The notes under the pieces are model-generated. The model ran no database searches, was not told where the DNA came from, and saw only the letters and a list, made by a program, of their open reading frames with translations. A program made the translations under genes and the position numbers. DNA of 21,881 nucleotides. Source: a virus. This document shows, in pieces, positions 1,878 to 21,881 of the stretch (its first letter is position 1; each line of letters begins with the position of its first letter). The stretch lies in IMG/VR virus record IMGVR_UViG_3300020421_000160, positions 1 through 21,881 of that record; one strand, given 5' to 3'.

Positions 1878-1901
1878 TTATAAATGTCTTCTTATTTATA
1901 A
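1878..1901. repeat. 8-bp perfect inverted repeat overlapping the late promoter
   Basis: TTATAAAT at 1878-1885 is the exact reverse complement of ATTTATAA at 1894-1901, separated by 8 bases. The right arm overlaps the TATAAATA element almost completely. It is AT-only and not followed by a U-tract, so it is a poor intrinsic terminator. It could be chance in AT-rich spacer. Confidence 0.4.
1893..1900 (-). promoter_or_regulatory. T4-type late promoter TATAAATA
   Basis: An exact TATAAATA on the minus strand starts one base after the TAA (1904-1902) of the 1324-aa gene and lies about 40 bases before the ATG of the left-edge fibre gene. This is the consensus read by the T4 late sigma factor gp55 with the sliding clamp. 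Three other exact copies occupy gene junctions in this window. Confidence 0.85.
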
Positions 1902-4900
1902 TTATTTGAAACGTACTGGGGGAGTAAAATCTCTAGTATATAGTGCTGTATTTTTGATAATTCTTAGATTTGAAATATATCCGTCCATCCAAGATGAAGT
2001 GCCATCGTCACCTATTCTAAATGTAGTACCACTTATATTACCACTATATGAATAGTGATCAATTTCTCCACCGTCTTGAAATACTGTTAATTTGCCTTCT
2101 GAGTCATCATGAACGTAAGCCATGTGATACCATCTATTTGCTTCTGGTGTTATATTTGTATTATAGTAAGGACTTGCAATACCACCATTATGATATACTG
2201 TAAAAGCATTAGAGCCGTTTCTATAGTAAAAAGCTGGAGCATATCCATTAAAAGCACAATGTATTTGATTACCAGATGTGTTATTATGATATACCCAATA
2301 CTCTATAGTCCAATCATTAGTACCGATAGTATCTGCCAATGTACACTGTAAGAAATCACCACTACCATCAAACTTAACAGATTTCATACCAGGAGCAGGA
2401 GCAAAGTTTGAAACAACTGCATTACCGCTTACAGAAATTGAAGTACCATTAGAACTTCCGTCTGTTACTGTGGCAGAGCCTGCTGTACCAGCATGACAAG
2501 TTAAAAGTGTCACATTACTTGCAGTTGGGGTAGGTGTTGTACCATCAGGTTTTGTCATACCTGAATTAGTAGGTGTGAGAGTTACTGGATCTGCATAATA
2601 AGGATACACTGATTTTCCTTTTAATACTCTAAGATTTTCTAGATAACCATGAAAATGTCCAGAGTATCCTGGATATTTACCAATAAGAAATGCACCGGCG
2701 GCTTGAGTTTTACTATTAGCGTCTGTAATTGCCGATCCTTCTTGAACACCATCTACATACAATCTAACTTGTCCACTAACTCTACGAACAACAAAGTGTT
2801 TCCAAACATCTTGTATATTGCTTGTGCCTGATATTTTTAAACTACTACCATCATCTGCCGTGTAAACAAGTTTACCACCAGAAGAATGAATATACACTTG
2901 AATTGAATCTGTTCCGTTATCTCCGTAAGCAAATATTCTTCTATACTGACTGTCTGTGGATACTGATAATGCGTATACATAACCTTCAACAGTAAAGTCT
3001 TCTGTTCCTATTTTTAAAGTATCAGTGTCACCTGAAGGTTGAATATTTTGCGATAAGTAATCACCATTACCATCAAAGTAGATTGAAGGTTGATCAGCAA
3101 ATTTAGATTTTCCTAGTGAAGATGTTACATTTCCTTCCATCTCTAAACTTTGTTGTTGAGATGCATCTCCTACTAATACATCTCCCAGATTTAATAATAA
3201 TTTTGTATGAGAAGCATCAAAACTTGTATTGACATTAGTTGTTGATGGATATGTTCCACCTGTTTTTGTAAGTGGACGAGTTGGTGGAGTAAAAGCACCA
3301 GTATAGACAGCAGTACCTACAACTATTCTTAAATCTGAAAGAAATCCTTCAGCAGGCAGTTCACTTGTAACTGATCCTCCTCCAAATTCTATTTCACCGG
3401 CTGTTGTAGTTGTATAATCATATGTATCGGAAGCACTTCCTTTTTCAACACCATCACAATATATTTTCATAGTGCCACTATTTCGGACAATTGCAATATG
3501 TGTCCAAACTTTATCTCTAAGCACAGAAGTACTGGTTGTAAGTGAATTTGTAGATGATCGATACCACTTTAGATATCCGTTACTAGTATCTTTATACAAT
3601 CTCCAACCACCAGTAGTAGCATAGCGTTTACTTAGAATTGCTTCCCAAAAACTTGTAGCACCTTCAGGACGATACCAAAGTTCTATTGTAAAATTACCTG
3701 TTCCTAGTTGTATTTCATTTGTTGCTTTATCGGTTGTCTCTATATTTCCGGCGGCGTTGTTGTTTATATAAAATGATCCACCATGTTTATCTGGAGCATA
3801 AACTTCTCTATCATAAGGAATATATGGTACAGGGAACGGTGTTCCTCCAATAGTAAATCTAGGATCTAGAAAAGGATTATGAAATCCGTGAAAAATATTA
3901 AGTGATGCATGTGCTGTGCTTCTTGATCCAGGTACACTAATTGTTTCATTAGTAGAGGTATATAACTTAGCTTTAGTAAACTTTACATCATGTAAATAAC
4001 CTTCAAAATAATTTCCTAGAGAACCAAAATTTGAGCCATCAGCTTCTGTACCAAAAGCAAACGAATTATTATCAAAAGATATTCTATCTAATCCAGTTAC
4101 TCTAAATACTCTGTGTCCGTCTATCCAAAGAGTTACGATATCAGCATCAGAACTTCCATCTGTTTCATGCATAAAAACATAATGATGCCATTGATTTTGT
4201 TTTGTATAAATTCCACCATAATCAGATCCTATCTGAGTATTATCCCAGTTTGCTCTTCGAATACCGACAACAAAATCATTTAGCCCACCTGATAGATTGT
4301 TACAACCTATTATATGATCTGTATTAGAAGCTGGATCTGAAAATGAATATGCCCAAAACTCTAATGTAAAGTTATCACATTTTCCACCAGAATCATTAAT
4401 GTCAGCTAAAGTATCATCTCTTAGATAATCACCAGAGCCGTCAAAATACGTACTATAACCTCCTGAAGCATACGGACTAAATTGTGAAGTATGACTTTGG
4501 GCGGCAGTACCAAACATCTCTACAGTATGTGCTGAGTTTGAAGTATCTCTCACAAACTTGTTAGTATATAATGTACCAGCTGGTGCAAAAGGACTATCAG
4601 CGTCATAAGTTGGGCTACCAGAAGTTGTGAAACTACGATTATCTGCTGAATTATCTGTATCTGAACCTTGTGCGATTAAAAGGTTAGTGTTTGTAATTGC
4701 AGTGAGAGGTGCAGTCGGTGGTGTAAAAGCACTTGTATATACAGCAGTTCCTTTTACCATACGTAAATTACTAAGTCTACCATTCAAAGGACTTGTGCCA
4801 CCAGATGCCCGATCTCTTCCTATTGTTAACGAACCACGACTAAAATTATATGTAGTACTATAACTACCAACTTCTGTTCCATCAAGATACATTTTCAGAG

Positions 4901-5876
4901 TGCCACTATTTCTAACCCATGCAAGATGATACCATGTTCCTGCGGATAAAGAACCACTAGATGCTGTAGTGATACCTACTCCTGGTTGATAGACTGCCAT
5001 CTTATTTGGATTTCCATTTAAGAATAATGCAATTCTACCAGCCACAGATCCACTAGCTCCAGCTTGTGCAGTATCATAAATTAATTGATTAGCAGTAACG
5101 GCGGTTGGTTTAAACCAACATTCTACAGTAAAATCTCCTGATCCTGGAGCAAGATCATCATGAGTAGCGGATAGAGTATCGTAACTAGTAGTGTGTAATA
5201 AACTTTGTTGTTTTATAGTTGTGATTCCTGGTGGATTATTTGCTAACAAAGTAAGGGCTTCATATTTAGAATTTTTTAGTGAATATGCGGTGCTTATTGT
5301 TATGGTACCTGTTCCAGTATTGACACCATCAGTTACAGTTAATGTTACTGTAGCTCCTGCTAGTGGTGTTGTTCCATCAAATACCATTCTTAAATGATTG
5401 TTACTTGTAGTATGTGTTATGGCAACATTACCTGTGGTAGCAATACCTGAGTTAGCAAAAGTTACAGTAGTTGGTGTTCCTTCTGGCTCATTCACAGTAT
5501 AAGTGAAATCTAATGTAAGATTTTCGGTTGTAGGATCAGCCGATGTTGATGATAGAGTAATTGATGGTGAAGTATTCAGAGTAGAAATTTTATACCAACC
5601 AGAACCGTTCGATATATACAATGAGTTAGTCAATGTAGCATAAGCTAAAGTGCCTGAGGCAGATATAGGATTAATTGGAAATATTGAAGAGTTTGCATAC
5701 GTTGTTATTGCTGACGCTCCAACTATACCTGCTCCAGCTTCAATGATACTCGTATTTGATTGTGAATCTTGTATCTTTAGATTACCACTATCTGCACCCA
5801 TAACAACTCTAGAGGTGCCTGTGCCTAATGTCATCGTGTTTCCAGATGTCGATGTAAATGGAACTTTTTGTACCAT
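1902..5876 (-). CDS. Five-LamG-domain virion adhesin (concanavalin A-like lectin repeats)
   Basis: 1324 aa. Residues 1-200 form an N-terminal module starting MVQKVPF, with the segments SRVVMGADSGNLKIQDSQSN and SGWYKI and an Ig-like stretch (TLDFTYTVNEPEGTP) at about 105-198. The 417-aa neighbour carries a paralogous module. Five LamG/concanavalin-like domains follow at about 225-395, 475-650, 698-870, 930-1095 and 1165-1320. Each shows a strand of the type FTVECWFKP, FTLEFWAYS, FTIELWYRP, FTVEGYVYA or WTIEYWVYH, then W-H-aromatic and a YLDG/YVDG-like turn; three end in an NLR/DLR...VYT...FTPP signature. LamG folds commonly bind glycans, so a role in attachment to surface polysaccharide is inferred. 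The ATG at 5876 has an AAGGAA ribosome site eight bases upstream and its own late promoter. No signal peptide or membrane segment was seen. Confidence 0.88.
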   Translation of the reverse strand: MVQKVPFTSTSGNTMTLGTGTSRVVMGADSGNLKIQDSQSNTSIIEAGAGIVGASAITTYANSSIFPINPISASGTLAYATLTNSLYISNGSGWYKISTLNTSPSITLSSTSADPTTENLTLDFTYTVNEPEGTPTTVTFANSGIATTGNVAITHTTSNNHLRMVFDGTTPLAGATVTLTVTDGVNTGTGTITISTAYSLKNSKYEALTLLANNPPGITTIKQQSLLHTTSYDTLSATHDDLAPGSGDFTVECWFKPTAVTANQLIYDTAQAGASGSVAGRIALFLNGNPNKMAVYQPGVGITTASSGSLSAGTWYHLAWVRNSGTLKMYLDGTEVGSYSTTYNFSRGSLTIGRDRASGGTSPLNGRLSNLRMVKGTAVYTSAFTPPTAPLTAITNTNLLIAQGSDTDNSADNRSFTTSGSPTYDADSPFAPAGTLYTNKFVRDTSNSAHTVEMFGTAAQSHTSQFSPYASGGYSTYFDGSGDYLRDDTLADINDSGGKCDNFTLEFWAYSFSDPASNTDHIIGCNNLSGGLNDFVVGIRRANWDNTQIGSDYGGIYTKQNQWHHYVFMHETDGSSDADIVTLWIDGHRVFRVTGLDRISFDNNSFAFGTEADGSNFGSLGNYFEGYLHDVKFTKAKLYTSTNETISVPGSRSTAHASLNIFHGFHNPFLDPRFTIGGTPFPVPYIPYDREVYAPDKHGGSFYINNNAAGNIETTDKATNEIQLGTGNFTIELWYRPEGATSFWEAILSKRYATTGGWRLYKDTSNGYLKWYRSSTNSLTTSTSVLRDKVWTHIAIVRNSGTMKIYCDGVEKGSASDTYDYTTTTAGEIEFGGGSVTSELPAEGFLSDLRIVVGTAVYTGAFTPPTRPLTKTGGTYPSTTNVNTSFDASHTKLLLNLGDVLVGDASQQQSLEMEGNVTSSLGKSKFADQPSIYFDGNGDYLSQNIQPSGDTDTLKIGTEDFTVEGYVYALSVSTDSQYRRIFAYGDNGTDSIQVYIHSSGGKLVYTADDGSSLKISGTSNIQDVWKHFVVRRVSGQVRLYVDGVQEGSAITDANSKTQAAGAFLIGKYPGYSGHFHGYLENLRVLKGKSVYPYYADPVTLTPTNSGMTKPDGTTPTPTASNVTLLTCHAGTAGSATVTDGSSNGTSISVSGNAVVSNFAPAPGMKSVKFDGSGDFLQCTLADTIGTNDWTIEYWVYHNNTSGNQIHCAFNGYAPAFYYRNGSNAFTVYHNGGIASPYYNTNITPEANRWYHMAYVHDDSEGKLTVFQDGGEIDHYSYSGNISGTTFRIGDDGTSSWMDGYISNLRIIKNTALYTRDFTPPVRFK
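5755..5813 (-). repeat. Direct repeat copy 1 (N-terminal anchor of 1324-aa gene)
   Basis: These 59 bases match 7037-7095 at 57 of 59 positions by direct comparison. They encode the segment around VMGADSGNLKIQDSQSN at about residues 22-41 of the adhesin. A second conserved patch of the same two genes covers the Ig-like segment (about 5385-5520 against 6665-6802), including a run of about 25 near-identical bases. Confidence 0.9.
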
Positions 5877-5896: not shown

Positions 5897-5904
5897 TATT
5901 TATA
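5897..5904 (-). promoter_or_regulatory. T4-type late promoter TATAAATA
   Basis: An exact TATAAATA begins on the base right after the TAG (5907-5905) of the 417-aa gene and ends 20 bases before the ATG of the 1324-aa gene. An AAGGAA ribosome site lies between. Same family as the elements at 1893, 11920 and 17071. Confidence 0.88.
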
Positions 5905-7162: not shown

Positions 7163-7525
7163 CTATCTCGCTACGCCGATACGTGTTATCTTTAAGTTTA
7201 ATGTTCCAGTTGATGCCGGTGTTGCTCTGAGTCTCAGAGTTCTTGGCGGACCTATGTCTGAATCTGCCGTAAATGATACAAGATTAGTTGATTGTATATC
7301 ACCAAACTGTGTGAAGTCACAATCTGTAGCTGAAGTCATAGCAACCACAACTGTACAATAATGAAAGTCAGTGCCTTTTGTTGCCATAATATTAAACACT
7401 ACAGAACTTGTATCTACAGCTTGTACAGAGTCAACTGTTTGTATTGACGTACCTGTCGCTGTTGTTGATATCTGCGAATACTTGTCTGCTAAGTCTGCAA
7501 ATATTCTCGCTTTACTTTTTGCCAT
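7163..7525 (-). CDS. Small virion protein homologous to the C-terminal domain of the 519-aa fibre
   Basis: 120 aa, starting MAKSKARIFADLADKY. Residues about 30-120 read as the same beta-rich domain that ends the 519-aa protein. Both have a VVF-/SAQYLIQAT-type strand, a V(I/V)...F strand, then FG(D/R)(I/L)...N, a run with SD, and R(I/L)(K/R)V/A..QTTSTK- or ASTGTL-like strands closing LKIQATRL or LKITRIGV. Domains of this kind are common at the C-termini of marine phage fibres. The ATG at 7525 overlaps the TAA of the 519-aa gene by one base (TAATG), with an AAGGAAGAG ribosome site inside that gene, so the two are translationally coupled. It may be a head subunit or cap for the fibre, or a minor structural protein; the function is inferred. 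Confidence 0.75.
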   Translation of the reverse strand: MAKSKARIFADLADKYSQISTTATGTSIQTVDSVQAVDTSSVVFNIMATKGTDFHYCTVVVAMTSATDCDFTQFGDIQSTNLVSFTADSDIGPPRTLRLRATPASTGTLNLKITRIGVAR

Positions 7526-9084: not shown

Positions 9085-9105
9085 ATCTATGGTACCTATT
9101 CATTA

Positions 9106-9119
9106 ACCCTATGTAGGGT
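9106..9119. other. Leader hairpin before the 519-aa gene
   Basis: ACCCTA and TAGGGT flank two bases; realistically this is a 5-bp stem with a 4-base loop. It sits in the transcribed leader between the sigma70-type promoter and the start codon, about 20 bases before the ATG. It could affect translation. With no T-tract after it on the minus strand it is not a convincing terminator in that direction. Confidence 0.45.
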
Positions 9120-9133
9120 AGATATATTTTTAC

Positions 9134-9153
9134 AATCTATTATATAATAGATT
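9134..9153. repeat. 20-bp perfect palindrome over the -10 box
   Basis: AATCTATTAT followed by its exact reverse complement ATAATAGATT, with no spacer. It covers the TATAAT box completely. The position is what one would expect of an operator for a dimeric repressor, though no regulator gene is in the window and an AT-only palindrome can occur by chance. Confidence 0.6.
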
Positions 9154-9167
9154 TAGCCGTCTGTCAA
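9139..9167 (-). promoter_or_regulatory. Perfect-consensus sigma70-type promoter
   Basis: On the minus strand TTGACA (9167-9162) is followed, after exactly 17 bases, by TATAAT (9144-9139): all 12 consensus bases and the ideal spacing. It lies in the 86-bp gap between the TAA of the 902-aa gene (9173-9171) and the ATG of the 519-aa gene (9084). The predicted start of transcription is near 9132, giving a leader of about 48 bases. This is the class of promoter read by the host housekeeping sigma factor, usually early in T4-like infection, and it is unexpected in front of a tail fibre gene. Confidence 0.75.
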
Positions 9168-9170
9168 CTA

Positions 9171-11879
9171 TTATTCTCCAGTAAATGTTCCGCAATCTAT
9201 AGACATATTGTTTATAGATGAAAGTCCAGAAGAACTATCAGGACGACTTATAAATGGAGCAGACGAGGCTGTTCCAAATGCTAAATGTCCTACTAACATT
9301 GGTGCTAGTCTAAAGCTAGAGTGACTTGAGTTCATTAACTGATCGGAACCACCTGAAGGTTCTACTTCTAAACTGTCGAATAGCATCCAAGGCTTATCTT
9401 CAGTTGCGATACCATTAACATTTACTGTCGCAACATCACGAACAAAACCTGTGAATTTATCTTGGCTACCAGTGTCATCATACTCACCATAGATACCTAT
9501 ATCTTTTACGTCACTTGATGTGTTACCATCAGCAAGTTTAAGCATCGCATCTGTAACTTCAACTGTTGTTGATGCTACAGTTGTTGTAGTTCCTGATACT
9601 GTTAAGTTACCAGCAACAACCAATGCACCAGATACGTTTGTTGTATCACTTGTCGCATTACCTAGTTGAGTGTCACCATTAACTGTTAAGTCTGTTGAAA
9701 CTGTGACTGTACCTGGAGCAACTAGAGTATGTGAAAGTCCTAGTGTGTGTTGTACTTGCTCACCAGATGAACCACCAGTAGTAACAAGTTCGTTTGCATC
9801 AACTGCGATACTTCGTACATGATCAAAGTTAACCATGGTTGCATCAATTGTATCATTTCCTATTGTTGAAACGCCACCAGTGCTTACTGTTATATCACCA
9901 GTGATTAGAGATAAAGCAGTACCTATTGTTGTCTTATGTACACCATCATCAGTTTCATCGTTAAAAATTAAAGCATCGCCGACAACAGGAGTTTCAGTAT
10001 CACCACCCTCAATATTTAAACGTGAGATATCTATACCGCCAGTACCACCATCGATGTATGTCTTTATTCTTGCCGCCGTTGTCTTTCTATTTGTTCCGGC
10101 TCCTCCGTCATCAATAATAAACAAGTCTGCATCTACAATGTCGGCTCCAATGTCAGTTGCTCCATCTACGTCTATAGCACTGACGTTTATTTTGTTTGCT
10201 GTAGAAATAGTGTTTAGCTTAGTATCAGCAATACTACCATTTAACATTGCGTTTGTTACTGTACCACTATCACCAGTTGTTACTAATGTACCAGTTGTAT
10301 TGATTGGTACTGTTAGTGTAGAGTCTGCATAAGAGGCGCCCGCCGGTGCTATTGTGATTTTGTTAGTGCCTGCTCCAGTACCTTCGAAAAGATTTATTGA
10401 AGGCGCCGCCGCCGATCCTTTAGTAAGATTTAAATCACCAGCTGTTGTAGATATATCTCCTGCTGTTGATGTTATTGCACCACTAAATGTTGCTTTACCA
10501 GCATCACTAGCATCTAACTTTAGCATGTCTATATCGGAGCTATCGTCAGTACCTCTGAATATAATATCTTTATCTGCTTGAGCATGTTGTATTATAGCAT
10601 CATCATCAGCATCTGGTTTAAAAAGAAGATAGTTTGTTCCTGCGTCTGCTAAAGCAACAGTGCCTGGAGTTCCGCTACCGGCGGCATCAAGTGTTACAGA
10701 GCCAGCAGAGTCTACTGTAAAATTACCTGAGGCATTCGTTAGAGTTGAACCATCTATTGTTACATTATCAGCTACAAGAGAACCACCAGTTACAGCACCT
10801 GTTGTAGTAATTGTTGATGAGCCTGTGTCTATTGAACCAAAGCCACTTGTTATAGAACCACTGTTCAATGCACCTGTTGATACGAGGTTAGGCATTGCTG
10901 TGATTTCGTCATCTAGATAGGCAGCCAAAGTTTCGACACTGGTTTGTGCCATAGTGCCACCATGGTTCATTACAATACCATGTCCGTCAGCAACTGCTGT
11001 TGTTCCTACACTTGTACTACCATCTACAATGTTAAGTTCGGTTGCCGATGCATCGACTGCCGCCAGTTTTGTAAAGTCTGCTTTTACAAGTCCTGATACA
11101 CCGTCTAGTAAGTTTAGTTCTGTAGCTGTAGCTGTCAGTGCTACGTTTTCATTTATCTTTGGTGAGGTTAGTGTCTTATTTGTAAGGGTATCTGTTGTTG
11201 CTCTACCTACAAGTGTATCTGTAGCATCAGGTATCGTTACTGTTCTATCAGCAGTTGGATCTGCGACAGTTAGTGTTGTTTCAAAATCATCAGCAGTAGC
11301 ACCTTCAAATATTATTGATGCGTCTGATAATGTTAGTCCTGAAGCAATAGGTGAAGTTAATGTCTTGTTTGTAAGTGTTTGTGAGCCTGTTAGTGTTGCT
11401 ACTGTAGAGTCAATAGCTAACGTAATAGTATTAGTGCCTGTTGTTGAAGTAAGTCCGGTACCACCTAATATATCTATGTTACCACTTCCATCTGGAGAAG
11501 TATCTGAACTACCATCACCTAGGCTGTTAACGGCGGCACCACCAGCAACTGCTAGTGTTACTTGATTTGATGCATGTGTGACTGTAATACTACTAGAACC
11601 TAGAATACTAAATTCACCATCTGCTACTTGAGTACCACCTCCAGAACCTGTAGTGGATCTATTAAGTGTTATTTTGGCACCACCACTTACTGATGCGTTA
11701 TCTAGTGCGTAGTTATCACCACCAAGTCTGATGATGTCACCAGAGTCACCATCACTAGTTGCTTTAGTGAAAAGTATACCATCGACTAAGTTAACCGCTA
11801 GTTCCGCAATCTCCAACTCATTATGTAGAGGCACTCTACCTGCCGTGGTTGATCTTTTGATCTGTATGACGTTTGCCAT
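9171..11879 (-). CDS. Long tail fibre protein
   Basis: 902 aa. The N-terminus (MANVIQIKRSTTAGRVP..NELEIAELAVN..DG.LFTK) is the probable attachment domain, shared with the 519-aa fibre. The body is a Ser/Thr/Gly/Asp-rich beta shaft with recurring units: TLTGSQTLTNKTLTSP and TDTLTNKTLTSPK (two copies of one repeat), and ATATELNLLDG and ASATELNIVDG (two of another). Blocks shared with other fibres here are DKDIIFRGTDD...LKLDASDAGKATF at about 435-463 (cf. the S74 fibre), DVDGATDIGADIVDADLF...TNRKTT at about 566-605 (cf. the left-edge fibre) and NLTVSGTTTTVASTT at about 757-775. The C-terminus (SIDCGTFTGE) has no domain I recognise and no S74 motif. ATG at 11879 has a strong AAGGAG eight bases upstream and its own late promoter 40 bases away. 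Confidence 0.87.
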   Translation of the reverse strand: MANVIQIKRSTTAGRVPLHNELEIAELAVNLVDGILFTKATSDGDSGDIIRLGGDNYALDNASVSGGAKITLNRSTTGSGGGTQVADGEFSILGSSSITVTHASNQVTLAVAGGAAVNSLGDGSSDTSPDGSGNIDILGGTGLTSTTGTNTITLAIDSTVATLTGSQTLTNKTLTSPIASGLTLSDASIIFEGATADDFETTLTVADPTADRTVTIPDATDTLVGRATTDTLTNKTLTSPKINENVALTATATELNLLDGVSGLVKADFTKLAAVDASATELNIVDGSTSVGTTAVADGHGIVMNHGGTMAQTSVETLAAYLDDEITAMPNLVSTGALNSGSITSGFGSIDTGSSTITTTGAVTGGSLVADNVTIDGSTLTNASGNFTVDSAGSVTLDAAGSGTPGTVALADAGTNYLLFKPDADDDAIIQHAQADKDIIFRGTDDSSDIDMLKLDASDAGKATFSGAITSTAGDISTTAGDLNLTKGSAAAPSINLFEGTGAGTNKITIAPAGASYADSTLTVPINTTGTLVTTGDSGTVTNAMLNGSIADTKLNTISTANKINVSAIDVDGATDIGADIVDADLFIIDDGGAGTNRKTTAARIKTYIDGGTGGIDISRLNIEGGDTETPVVGDALIFNDETDDGVHKTTIGTALSLITGDITVSTGGVSTIGNDTIDATMVNFDHVRSIAVDANELVTTGGSSGEQVQHTLGLSHTLVAPGTVTVSTDLTVNGDTQLGNATSDTTNVSGALVVAGNLTVSGTTTTVASTTVEVTDAMLKLADGNTSSDVKDIGIYGEYDDTGSQDKFTGFVRDVATVNVNGIATEDKPWMLFDSLEVEPSGGSDQLMNSSHSSFRLAPMLVGHLAFGTASSAPFISRPDSSSGLSSINNMSIDCGTFTGE

Positions 11880-11919: not shown

Positions 11920-11927
11920 TATTTATA
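11920..11927 (-). promoter_or_regulatory. T4-type late promoter TATAAATA
   Basis: An exact TATAAATA seven bases after the TAA (11937-11935) of the coiled-coil gene, about 40 bases before the ATG of the 902-aa fibre. An AAGGAG ribosome site lies between. Confidence 0.87.
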
Positions 11928-17049: not shown

Positions 17050-17070
17050 CTTAACACCTTTGTTTTGTAC

Positions 17071-17078
17071 TATTTATA
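17071..17078 (-). promoter_or_regulatory. T4-type late promoter TATAAATA
   Basis: An exact TATAAATA nine bases after the TAG (17090-17088) of the 300-aa gene and 21 bases before the ATG of the 116-aa gene. It is the presumed driver of the four-gene structural block down to 11935. Confidence 0.88.
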
Positions 17079-17087
17079 ATATGAGTA

Positions 17088-18000: not shown

Positions 18001-19098
18001 CTATCCTGCTATCGATCCATGAAATCTTCTATTATTATGTGAGATACTTCTTCCGTTTCGATGTACGGCTCTACCACCGCCACCACCATTACCTCCTCCG
18101 GCACCTCCACCAGAAGCACCCCAACCACCGCCTCCTCCACCTTCGGCAGTTCCAGCTCCACCACCTCCACCAGTAGCACGTCCTCCAGAGCCTCCAGGAT
18201 TTGCAAAACCAGGATTACTACCGCCAGAGCCTCCATTACCAGGATATTGTCTACCACCTCCACCACCGGAGCCTGCTGTTGAAGTACTAGTATTACCACC
18301 TTTGTTTACATCTCGGCCCCAGCCGCCTCCTCCTCCACCAGCTGTACCACCACGTCCTCTAACAGCACTACCTTCAGCACTTCCTGCTTGTGAGTTTCTT
18401 ATACCACCATCGGCACCTTTACCTCCTGCACTGTTACTACCAGCTCCACCATTAGTGTTAGCGTGATTAGCGGCGGCACGTCCTCCGTTACCACCTCCAG
18501 CACCTCCACCTCCACCAGCGGCGGCTCTGCCTCCAGTATCATCTCTGTATCTACCTGAACCTCCTCCACCTCCACCGGCAGAACAAGTTCCATTACTAAG
18601 ATTATTCCATCGTGTTATATTTGTTTGAAGAAGAAGAGCATGTCCTCCACCTGCACCATTTCCACCAGAAGCGTGTCCTCCTCTTCCACCTTTACCCATA
18701 ATGAAAGCGTAATTATCTACTTTTACTTCACTAGGAAAAGAACCTGTTCTCATTCCATAATTATTTGTTGCAGTTCCTATATGATATCCAGAATTGAGTG
18801 TTATACGAACTGGATTAGTTCCATCATAACCGTGAGAGTCTGCTAAGGATCTAAGATTTGAATTTGTACGATTACCACCACTAATAGTTACTTCTCTGTA
18901 ATCTAAGGCACCATGAAAGTCGCTTAGTGATATTTGTCCTGAATTAGGAATACTTCCTCCTACAAGATCTTCATTAATGATAGATCCGTTTCTGTAGTAT
19001 TCACTAAATTTTATTCCTGCACCTCCTGTTCCACCTGTAGGTGAAAACTCATCTTGTACATTTTTGATTGATATTGTGCCTGAACCTGGAAGTGCCAT
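18001..19098 (-). CDS. Glycine-rich adhesin-like tail fibre tip protein
   Basis: 365 aa. Residues 1-65 carry a pair of SG.IS motifs (MALPGSGTISIKNVQDEF, then NSGQISLSDFHGA), an N-terminal pattern common in marine phage virion proteins. Residues about 66-135 are beta-rich. Residues about 136-342 are dominated by glycine runs (G4-G6) broken by W, R, A and N, such as GGGGGGSGRYR, GGGGGGWGRD and GGGGGAGGGNGG. The end is RSISHNNRRFHGSIAG. Known parallel: gp38 adhesins of T-even-like phages place glycine-rich motifs that form a polyglycine-II core, with variable receptor loops between them. Here the ATG follows the TAA of a long fibre gene with no gap, with an AAAGG site inside it, as genes 37 and 38 are arranged. 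The gp38-like role is inferred; sequence homology is not shown. Confidence 0.75.
   Translation of the reverse strand: MALPGSGTISIKNVQDEFSPTGGTGGAGIKFSEYYRNGSIINEDLVGGSIPNSGQISLSDFHGALDYREVTISGGNRTNSNLRSLADSHGYDGTNPVRITLNSGYHIGTATNNYGMRTGSFPSEVKVDNYAFIMGKGGRGGHASGGNGAGGGHALLLQTNITRWNNLSNGTCSAGGGGGGSGRYRDDTGGRAAAGGGGGAGGGNGGRAAANHANTNGGAGSNSAGGKGADGGIRNSQAGSAEGSAVRGRGGTAGGGGGGWGRDVNKGGNTSTSTAGSGGGGGRQYPGNGGSGGSNPGFANPGGSGGRATGGGGGAGTAEGGGGGGWGASGGGAGGGNGGGGGRAVHRNGRSISHNNRRFHGSIAG
18073..18693 (-). repeat. Low-complexity poly-glycine coding tract
   Basis: This tract encodes about 207 residues (136-342) of the adhesin, built of GGT/GGA-rich runs seen on the plus strand as repeated CCTCCACC-like units. 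The local base skew (C-rich top strand) and GC content stand out from the AT-rich surroundings. Shadow open frames in this tract on both strands are by-products of the repeats. Confidence 0.8.
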
Positions 19099-21881
19099 TT
19101 ATTTACCTTTCAGTTCTTCTACCTCTTTCTTCAGTTCTTTTACAGCTTCAATGAGAACTGCACAAAGCTTACCATAATCTACAGACTTTGTTTGCATTTC
19201 ATCATTTGCTGTAAGAACTATTTGAGGTAGTATTTCTTCTACTTCTTGTGCGATAACACCTATTTTTTCTTTACCAGTCTCTTTGTGTGTATAATTTACA
19301 CCACGTAGATTGTCTACTTTATCTAATGCATTTTCTATAGTTGATACATTTTCTTTTAATCTAGCATCTGAGAAAGCTGTGACATCATTATTAAATGTGG
19401 CGGCACCAGCTTCCGACATATCAAGAGTAAGAGCGTTGAAGAAAGTTCCTCCGTCATTACCTTGAAAGAATATGTCTTCATCTTGTACTATTGATCTTAT
19501 TACTAAATCACTATCTGTTACGTTACGGAAAAATCTAGCATATTCAGTACCACCATCTGATAGTTTCACAATACCACTATCACTATCTAAATCTATATCT
19601 CCAACAACATCTACTGTAAGATTACCAGAACCAACTGCTAAAACATTACCATCTAGTGCTATGTTATCTATTGTCAAAGCACCCATAGTGTAAGACGCAG
19701 TGTTATCTATGGCGGCGTTACCCACAGCGTTTGCAGTTATCTTGTTTGTTGTTACAGCACCAGTAGCTAGTTTATCAGAAGTTACAGCACCATCTACTAT
19801 TTTTATAGTACTTACTGAATCTGTTTTTAATTTATTGACTGAGATTTGAGCGTTACCAATATCACCTTCAGCTACTAAGATACCTCCTGAAGGAAATCTT
19901 AGTTCACCAAAAACACTTGCATCAGCTCCAGTTAAACTTGCGATTGAACCTGCATTAGGATCTCCACTTGATGGAGAACCATCAGTACTCCATCTCAAGT
20001 CTATGTTTACTCCACTATGCCATTGTGTAGCAGTACTTGCTTTACCATGAAATGTATTTTCGCCAGCACCTGAGCCTGTCTTTGTTATGATATTTTGGTT
20101 ATCTGTATTCTTAAATACATCACCAAGAAAGTTTGTTCCTGCGGATACTACTTGTGAAGTCAAAGTTCCTGTAGAAGGTTTATATTTTAAATTAGAATCT
20201 TCTTTTATATCTTGTACATTTGGTGTTGAAGTACTAGAAACAAATGTTAAGAATTGATCGGCAGTAGATGTGCCATCAGAAACTGTTTTTACTTTTACAT
20301 CGATATTACCTGTACCATCAAATGATGCACCACCTATATTTCTTGCTGTTGCTAAAGCTGTTGCAGTGGCGGCGTTACCTGATGTGTCTTGATTACCTGT
20401 TGCGTTAACACCAGGAAGATTGATGTTTGCACTACCATTGAAACTTACACCACCTATAGTTCTTGCAGTCTCAAGTGTAGTAGCAGTATCTGCATTACCC
20501 GTTACATCACCAGTTAAACCAGCGTTAAAGTTTTGAATAGTCGCACCATTAAAGTTAACAGTGCCTGTAAATGCACTTGTACCAGATGATGAAATATTTC
20601 CTGTTACATTACCAGCAACATCACCAGTTAAATTACCAGTAACATTACCTTCTACACTTGCTACAAGAGTACCAGCAGTTCCTGATATTACTGATGAAGT
20701 ATCTGTAGCATCTGGTATCATTAAGAATTTACCTGTACTATCATCATAACCCATGAAGGCTTTCTTTGCACCTGAGTTATTGTACTTCATGATGATACCA
20801 CGATCTAGATTATCATCTGAACTAGATTCACCAAGTTCAAATATTGGATCTGCTATCGACACTGTTGTTGAATTGACTGTGGTTGTTGTACCAGAGACTG
20901 TTAAATCGCCTGTGATAGCTACATCTCTTGTAACTGTTAAGTCTCTACCAATTGTCACATCTTGTGGTAATCCTACTGTTACTGTACCGTTGTTACGAGC
21001 TACATCTACTTCATTTGAAGTACCAGCTACTGATAGTACAGCACCTGTTGAAGCATTTTTAAGTGTTACAGCACCTGAACTTACAGCAAAATCTCCAGCA
21101 TCGAATGATGCGACACCTCGTACACTATCTGTTGCTGGTGCAACTACTAAATCATGTGTTTTACCATCACCTGTGCTAACTCTTACATTATTGTTCGCAC
21201 TTGTGTAAGCAACGCTTGAGATACCAGCTACAGCTACTTGAGAGGCGGCTGTTACACGTCCTTTAGCATTTACTGTCAAGACTGGAACTTGTGTTGCAGA
21301 ACCATAAGTTGTTGCAGTAAGTCCTGAGATTGTAGCCATCTCATTTGTTCCGATAGAACCAGCACCTACTGTAGCGGCAAATGTAGAACCATCTGCTGTC
21401 GTAATTGTAAATGTTTTTCCACTAGTACCGTTACCAACTGCGAAACCTGTAACACCAGCGACTGTGGCTGTCGTGGCGGCAGTTATTTGTCCTTTATTAT
21501 TAAATGTAATAACTGGTACGGCTGATGCTGAACCTACACTAGCACCCGAAACAGTTGAGACTAACATATCAGATGTTATAACACCATTACCAATTGTTCC
21601 TGATGCATTCAATTCACCATTTGTATCGAATAAAACCGTACCACCATCTCTTGTTATAGCACCATCAAAGTCAACATTACCAGCAAAGTTTGATGTACCA
21701 GATATTGCTAGAGAACCACCAGATATTTCTCCTGTTACGCCTGCATCTCCACCTACACTTAAAGCATCAGTTACAGCTAAATCATCTTTTATGTCTATGT
21801 CATTTACATGTAGTTTTTCCCATGGCGCACTTGAACTTCCTAATTCTCTTGTACCTTGTGGAATAATATTTGACTTTACAA
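19099..21881 (-). CDS. Long tail fibre with C-terminal S74 self-cleaving chaperone domain, 5' end beyond window
   Basis: 926 residues visible. The frame is open to the right edge, so the TTG at 21612 is internal, not the start. Fibre signatures: IIPQGTRELGSSSAPWEKLHV near the visible start; two copies of a (S/Y)GSA..VPV(I/L)T.N.KG(Q/R)(I/V)TAA repeat at about 114-136 and 191-213; GDLTVSGTTTTVNSTT at about 325-339; two copies of GNA.TAT.L.TAR.IGG.SF.G..NI at about 461-526. The last 90 residues are a peptidase S74 / intramolecular chaperone domain: SDARLKENV (Ser837, Lys842), IGVIAQEVEEILPQ, VDYGKLCAVLIEAVKELKKEVEELKGK. In characterised members such as endosialidase and T5 fibre tails, a Ser-Lys pair five residues apart drives autocleavage after trimer folding; that spacing is kept here. 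The TAA abuts the ATG of the glycine-rich adhesin. Confidence 0.9.
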   Translation of the reverse strand, partial: VKSNIIPQGTRELGSSSAPWEKLHVNDIDIKDDLAVTDALSVGGDAGVTGEISGGSLAISGTSNFAGNVDFDGAITRDGGTVLFDTNGELNASGTIGNGVITSDMLVSTVSGASVGSASAVPVITFNNKGQITAATTATVAGVTGFAVGNGTSGKTFTITTADGSTFAATVGAGSIGTNEMATISGLTATTYGSATQVPVLTVNAKGRVTAASQVAVAGISSVAYTSANNNVRVSTGDGKTHDLVVAPATDSVRGVASFDAGDFAVSSGAVTLKNASTGAVLSVAGTSNEVDVARNNGTVTVGLPQDVTIGRDLTVTRDVAITGDLTVSGTTTTVNSTTVSIADPIFELGESSSDDNLDRGIIMKYNNSGAKKAFMGYDDSTGKFLMIPDATDTSSVISGTAGTLVASVEGNVTGNLTGDVAGNVTGNISSSGTSAFTGTVNFNGATIQNFNAGLTGDVTGNADTATTLETARTIGGVSFNGSANINLPGVNATGNQDTSGNAATATALATARNIGGASFDGTGNIDVKVKTVSDGTSTADQFLTFVSSTSTPNVQDIKEDSNLKYKPSTGTLTSQVVSAGTNFLGDVFKNTDNQNIITKTGSGAGENTFHGKASTATQWHSGVNIDLRWSTDGSPSSGDPNAGSIASLTGADASVFGELRFPSGGILVAEGDIGNAQISVNKLKTDSVSTIKIVDGAVTSDKLATGAVTTNKITANAVGNAAIDNTASYTMGALTIDNIALDGNVLAVGSGNLTVDVVGDIDLDSDSGIVKLSDGGTEYARFFRNVTDSDLVIRSIVQDEDIFFQGNDGGTFFNALTLDMSEAGAATFNNDVTAFSDARLKENVSTIENALDKVDNLRGVNYTHKETGKEKIGVIAQEVEEILPQIVLTANDEMQTKSVDYGKLCAVLIEAVKELKKEVEELKGK

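Follow-up and report, generated by a model that had tools for sequence, protein, structure and literature searches.

A consensus sigma70-type promoter sequence overlapped by a conserved palindrome in a phage tail-fibre block

In the standard account of T4-like phages, the virion genes are late genes. According to the parts of PMC2984593 and PMC9004378 cited here, the early genes of T4-like marine phages such as S-PM2, Syn9 and Melnitz have sigma70-type promoters and are served by the host sigma70 polymerase, and in RB49 and S-PM2 there are genes, homologues of T4 middle genes, that carry both an early and a late promoter (PMC2984593, same part). The first position of the late box is described as A or T in most T4-like phages studied (PMC1524935, passage cited). 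In the portion of PMC7029224 used here, prediction of middle and late promoters was unsuccessful in pelagimyophages, and their fibres were placed in a hypervariable host-recognition cluster. Symmetric -10 boxes can, by the section of PMC12825309 cited, support divergent starts, with 23 bp among the common start distances. In a non-exhaustive set of titles and abstract openings, no conserved sigma70 promoter was reported in the fibre block of a T4-like marine phage.

Here we describe such a sequence in a 21,881-nucleotide stretch of viral DNA (IMG/VR record IMGVR_UViG_3300020421_000160, hereafter the window). As a sequence feature the promoter is real. What is new beyond the first-pass annotation, which overlooked it, is a palindrome around the -10 that, judged by alignment, is conserved.

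The promoter sequence and the genes around it

The first-pass annotation had proposed a perfect-consensus sigma70-type promoter inside a late fibre block, and this was borne out. TTGACA and TATAAT, separated by exactly 17 bases, occupy positions 9167-9139 of the minus strand; a 902-aa and a 519-aa fibre gene flank the 86-nt gap, and the site is in its upstream part. The gap thus has the sigma70-class arrangement (TTGACA, TATAAT, about 17 bp between) and matches the consensus at 12 of 12 positions. A motif scan for TTGACA-N15..19-TATAAT returned this single match in the whole window, and 100 dinucleotide shuffles of the whole window gave a mean of 0.07 perfect sites, with at least one in 7 of them. 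Between positions 1 and 20000 it is the sole 12/12 sigma70-like site; promoter-like sites there number 74, against 75.7 (sd 9.5) in shuffles, so only the perfect site at 9139-9167 stands out. The features of the region are as follows.

11920-11927, minus strand: late box TATAAATA of the 902-aa gene, a possible source of late read-through into the 519-aa operon
9171-11879, minus strand: open reading frame of the 902-aa fibre gene, upstream of the gap
9162-9167, minus strand: -35 hexamer TTGACA, invariant in three of four distinct gap sequences
9139-9144, minus strand: -10 hexamer TATAAT, 17 bp from the -35 and invariant in the same three gap sequences
9134-9153, no strand: perfect 20-bp palindrome AATCTATTATATAATAGATT containing the -10, its 18-bp core conserved in relatives L005 and L006
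9132, minus strand: predicted transcription start, seven bases downstream of the -10 (the usual distance) and placed from the -10 position only
9106-9119, minus strand: hairpin ACCCU-ACAU-AGGGU of the 5' untranslated leader, 21-34 nt ahead of the start codon
7525-9084, minus strand: 519-aa fibre gene, first gene of a putative operon, with PHROG long tail fibre and tail fibre matches
7163-7525, minus strand: 120-aa gene, overlapping the 519-aa stop by one base and next to the 519-aa gene in the window and in relatives L002-L006
5905-7158, minus strand: 417-aa adhesin-like gene with a sub-threshold Ig-like match, without TATAAATA in front
17071-17078, 5897-5904 and 1893-1900, minus strand: further TATAAATA late boxes, which like that at 11920-11927 each lie in the gap upstream of a gene

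The tail-fibre PHROG matches of the 519-aa protein fall mostly over its N-terminal part. The promoter had been proposed to serve the 519-aa, 120-aa and 417-aa genes together, and their tight packing agrees with this, the 120-aa and 417-aa genes being 4 nt apart. The 417-aa gene is nevertheless not a fixed member: among the relatives, a gene similar to it in its start directly follows the 120-aa gene in L006 only, and a different gene does so in L005 and L002-L004. Near the end of the putative operon, the minus strand showed no terminator-like site. The next gene after the 417-aa gene, encoding a 1324-aa protein, has its own TATAAATA.

Elsewhere in the window, five stretches of this 1324-aa protein (1902-5876, minus strand) match a concanavalin A-like lectin domain (Laminin_G_3), and it is likely a receptor-binding adhesin. 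A 365-aa protein (18001-19098, minus strand) has a long glycine-rich region, which we take to be reminiscent of glycine-rich phage adhesins, and the protein at 19099-21879 (minus strand) ends in FSDARLKENV..., presumably a fibre chaperone domain from its appearance. The window holds no tRNA genes. An Rfam scan of it at gathering thresholds gave no match, and a small RNA or riboswitch in the gap was rejected on this ground. A moron insertion with its own promoter and terminator was also rejected, the 519-120 pair being present in all five relatives L002-L006, which were themselves found via the 519-aa gene.

The claim that the other promoter-bearing junctions carry late promoters held as well. 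TATAAATA occurs four times in the window (shuffle mean 2.36), always on the minus strand and always in other gaps; neither TATAAATA nor NATAAATA is present in the 86-nt gap. With a late-promoter matrix built from 18 sites of the 146.6-kb record G001, in which L005 lies (training scores 8.8-17.9), the best score in the gap was 3.5 for the window and at most 2.3 for L006. In L005, a late-like AATAAATA ends one base before TTGACA and scores 9.5, a value reached at 28 places in G001 (both strands), and the late-like box of L002 scores 7.9, with 68 places as high. The late-like box shares bases with the stop codon of the upstream gene and may therefore be a chance match. If it is accepted nonetheless, the gaps would be of three kinds: sigma70 only in the window and L006, both in L005, and late-like only in L002-L004. 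The minus strand of the gap showed no terminator-like site, so late transcripts starting at the promoter of the 902-aa gene could still read through into the operon.

An extended late box, ATTATAAATA, holds TATAAT on its opposite strand (17051-17080, plus strand; G001 at 84019, 102069 and 136640), and late promoters of this phage group therefore often score as antisense sigma70 sites.

Diverged relatives and the conserved footprint

A protein search blind to the promoter retrieved five relatives (L002-L006) from 12 candidate stretches; L011, with a gap identical to that of L006, was added by a palindrome search and a profile search (where it appears as L178). Including the window, seven contigs carry the 519-aa gene with its gap, and they fall into four distinct gap sequences: the window; L005; L006 and L011; and L002, L003 and L004. 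With 72-78% identity of their 519-aa proteins between gap types, these contigs have clearly diverged. The 12/12 promoter, with its 17-bp spacing and the palindrome, is found in three of the four gap sequences (4/7 contigs), and both L005 and L006 came from the promoter-blind search. The first-pass annotation had suggested aligning this gap in related phages to see whether the boxes are conserved, and the alignment gives a divided answer: both are kept in three of four gap types and both are absent from L002-L004, where the flanking genes are kept and no sense-strand site exceeds 9/12. For this one gap type the outcome is the one that the annotation had named as refuting its reading, and it counts against the promoter. 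In these three contigs a GC-rich 11-pair hairpin with one G-T pair and a UUAU loop replaces the AT palindrome (L002:5906-6000, L004:4601-4695), and the whole gap folds at -21.2 kcal/mol.

In an alignment of the window, L005 and L006, counting ungapped columns, invariance extends to 6/6 columns of the -35 and 19/19 of the palindrome, but to 0/8 of the spacer columns between them. Farther out, 19/39 ungapped columns upstream and 30/62 downstream are invariant, and over all those outside both motifs the figure is 49/109. A crude column hypergeometric test, whose figures are guides and not proper probabilities because they come from three sequences and adjacent columns, put the chance of invariance at 5e-4 for the 12 hexamer columns, about 4e-8 for all 25 motif columns, about 8e-5 for the 13 palindrome columns outside TATAAT and about 0.0035 for the eight outer-arm columns (ATCT, AGAT). 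The footprint is carried by only three promoter-bearing gap sequences, which counts against the promoter reading.

The leader hairpin recurs in the same slot in all four gap types (window, L006, L002, L005). In L005 the second (inner) pair is T-A for C-G, a fully compensatory change, and the fifth pair is broken in L002 and variable elsewhere. Minimum-energy folds of the leader contain the hairpin in the window, L006 and L002, and the longer L005 leader pairs differently; in folds of the gap, a shorter stretch, that of L005 shows it and that of L002 does not.

In G001, open reading frames were called from ATG with at least 60 aa, longest first, leaving 7184 intergenic bases. The 56.8-119 kb block of G001 carries genes for tail, baseplate, terminase, sheath, portal and major head. 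Its one intergenic sense-strand site with a sigma70-like score of 10/12 or better is that at 92422, the promoter in the L005 gap. Two sense-strand sites of 11/12 lie inside genes (63394, 74329), and there are also antisense intergenic sigma70-like sites, several of them overlapping TATAAATA boxes. Other sigma70-like sites of G001 precede genes including those for a DNA-binding protein and a single-strand-binding protein; of ten genes scanned downstream of such sites, a named function could be given to two. A homologue of gp55 is encoded in G001 (47% to HTVC008M, E 2e-48; against cyanophage gp55, up to 69% over 68% of the query). Models for MotA (the MotCF domain), the protein taken as the mark of T4 middle promoters, and for AsiA matched the T4 control and had no match in G001, G002 or HTVC008M; the window is a 21.9-kb fragment of its genome. 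From these results for G001 and G002, the sigma70 polymerase is not obviously switched off. The absence of MotA and AsiA agrees with what the cited part of PMC2984593 says of cyanomyoviruses.

A longer form, TTGACTTTT ... TGTGATATAAT, is common to early-type promoters of HTVC008M and occurs in several copies (L198, L199, L200). A promoter-like site of the same phage (L035:36442-36470), just before an endonuclease V gene, has a palindrome, TGCCAAATTGGCA, in its -35 region.

Beyond the close relatives, the profile search reached at least 14 loci, five of them, among the matches listed, from the 519-aa fibre family; a search on the conserved leader returned L009 and L011 again and nothing more. 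Upstream regions were examined for 8 of the 14 listed loci, namely L178 and seven distant N-terminal matches, leaving aside L174-L177 (on contigs seen before) and L181 and L183 (matching elsewhere than the N-terminus). Among the matches listed, the 150 nt upstream of the seven distant fibre genes with a matching N-terminus contain no site that reaches 10/12. A scan of HTVC008M in four pieces gave no sense-strand site of 11/12 or better in its fibre block (44-56 kb), and the fibre block of Mosig (a 49-kb piece) has one such site on the fibre strand, straddling the end of VrlC. These results count against the promoter reading. L184 and L185 have hairpins no more than about 60 nt upstream of the fibre start, with differing stems and a shared ATATATAT centre, followed by TTTTA and lying behind AATAAATA; by eye, the stems seem to covary.

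The palindrome and competing readings of the gap

The 18-bp core of the palindrome spans the region from -20 to -3, and the -10 is itself symmetric (ATTATATAAT), so that TATAAT can be read on both strands. No other place in G001 or the window resembles the palindrome at up to three mismatches. As RNA it folds at -5.1 kcal/mol (z -3.24). Matches in L008, L010, L012, L013 and L014 (four contigs) have unrelated contexts and lack TTGACA.

In the viral collection, TTGACA-N7..11-CTATTATATAATAG was found in 21 stretches, all with 17-bp spacing, representing 10 distinct sequences of which 8 are outside this fibre family. A permuted control, with an expected frequency similar to that of the palindromic motif by hand estimate, gave 10 stretches (7 distinct), and the idea of a widespread phage promoter element was dropped for want of a clear enrichment of the palindromic form. 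TTGACA-17-TATAATAG occurs at no fewer than 87 sites in at least 80 loci and, among the matches listed, none has a palindrome arm above 5. By eye, some genes behind L036-L053 resemble those for DNA polymerase and RNase H. A 22-bp palindrome of another virus (L044, L045), with the same core, covers the -10 of a promoter, and in L045 it is followed by a small protein that resembles, by eye, a ribbon-helix-helix DNA-binding protein.

The sequence, its conservation, its uniqueness and the gene layout are read directly from the DNA; whether and when the promoter is transcribed, and what reads the palindrome, can only be inferred from them. The promoter is probably functional, serving the host polymerase for the 519-120(-417) operon in addition to late read-through, with the palindrome as a separate, co-selected element. 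Unmodified host RNA polymerase would transcribe the 519-aa gene, the 120-aa gene and, in the window phage, the 417-aa adhesin gene from the sigma70-class promoter, which would act beside gp55-dependent late read-through from the TATAAATA of the 902-aa gene. The conservation of promoter and palindrome in diverged relatives suggests one fibre operon that unmodified host polymerase can switch on. The palindrome would be a sequence-specific DNA element selected together with the promoter, most likely either a binding site for a dimeric regulator, which would block or shape initiation, or a symmetric -10 that polymerase enters from both sides.

Regarding what the palindrome does, an operator at which a dimeric repressor or activator, of phage or host, controls this one promoter is a tentative possibility. 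As in operators, the inverted repeat overlaps a promoter, covering its -10, and is conserved in sequence. Its outer arms ATCT and AGAT, free to vary with respect to the -10 hexamer, are invariant in the three diverged gaps, which suits protein-DNA recognition better than RNA pairing. However, the right-arm AGAT could be a discriminator preference, and operators would be expected at further genomic sites: at up to three mismatches there is a single copy in G001 and the window, hence no regulon, and no site in G002 (52.9 kb).

Alternatively, the symmetric -10 could make the promoter bidirectional, with starts on both strands and an antisense RNA that enters the 902-aa gene from its 3' end. TATAAT on both strands would put the predicted starts 23 bp apart, and in L005 the antisense partner reaches 11/12 with 17-bp spacing. 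This is nonetheless unlikely, as the antisense -35 is not conserved (10/12 in the window and at most 9/12 in L006) and symmetry of the -10 alone leaves the conserved outer arms unexplained.

We also think it improbable that the palindrome is kept as an intercistronic hairpin in late read-through RNA, for protection or processing of 3' ends, with the promoter match secondary. Its RNA does fold, L002-L004 have a much stronger hairpin of unrelated sequence in the same slot, and by eye there are palindromes in the corresponding slot of the fibre leaders of L179, L184 and L185. A hairpin would leave unexplained, however, a 6/6 -35 at an exact 17-bp spacing, and the arms are conserved in sequence and not just in pairing, the four outer pairs ATCT/AGAT being without compensatory change.

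Least probable, and very doubtful, is a consensus match arising by chance in AT-rich DNA or carried in by recombination, with late read-through serving the operon: the promoter is absent from L002-L004 and 7 in 100 shuffled windows hold such a match, but the late block of G001 has a single intergenic sense site of at least 10/12, and the recombination remnant allowed for in the first-pass annotation is disfavoured because the motif is kept in diverged relatives while the spacer inside it has completely changed.

Relation to known promoters

The find departs only modestly from known phage promoter use. Should the host-polymerase promoter operate as proposed, some receptor-binding proteins could be made without the phage late sigma factor. 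There is a stronger version, in which the fibre operon of a lytic T4-like phage stands outside the late programme: host polymerase would transcribe it early in infection from the outset, or all through it, under a once-per-genome palindromic operator, and the amount or timing of this fibre set would be controlled apart from the rest of the virion. This seems quite unlikely from the sequence evidence. The four gap types amount to a natural experiment in promoter turnover, set in a region whose rapid evolution goes with host range. At 86 bp the gap is a short, self-contained piece that can be cloned, which makes the promoter directly testable. The late matrix and the sites given here also provide late promoter candidates for pelagimyophages (compare the portion of PMC7029224 cited above).

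Late promoters of the T4 type (TATAAATA) serve the other fibre junctions of the window, and G001 has a gp55 homologue; unlike those junctions, the 86-nt gap is missing TATAAATA. The gap resembles the bidirectional bacterial promoters in the cited section of PMC12825309 in having TATAAT on both strands and a predicted 23-bp distance between starts, and differs in that its perfect -35 is on one side only and the antisense -35 is not conserved. Like the overlapping promoters of RB49 and S-PM2 (PMC2984593, part cited), L005 pairs a late-like AATAAATA with TTGACA; unlike them, the genes here encode fibres, the window and L006 gaps are without a late-like box, and L002-L004 have the late-like box only. 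Compared with the early promoters of S-PM2, Syn9 and Melnitz, as given in the parts of PMC2984593 and PMC9004378 cited, the hexamer class and the type of polymerase, host sigma70, are the same, but here the promoter is without TG before the -10, lies in a late fibre block and is set in a conserved palindrome.
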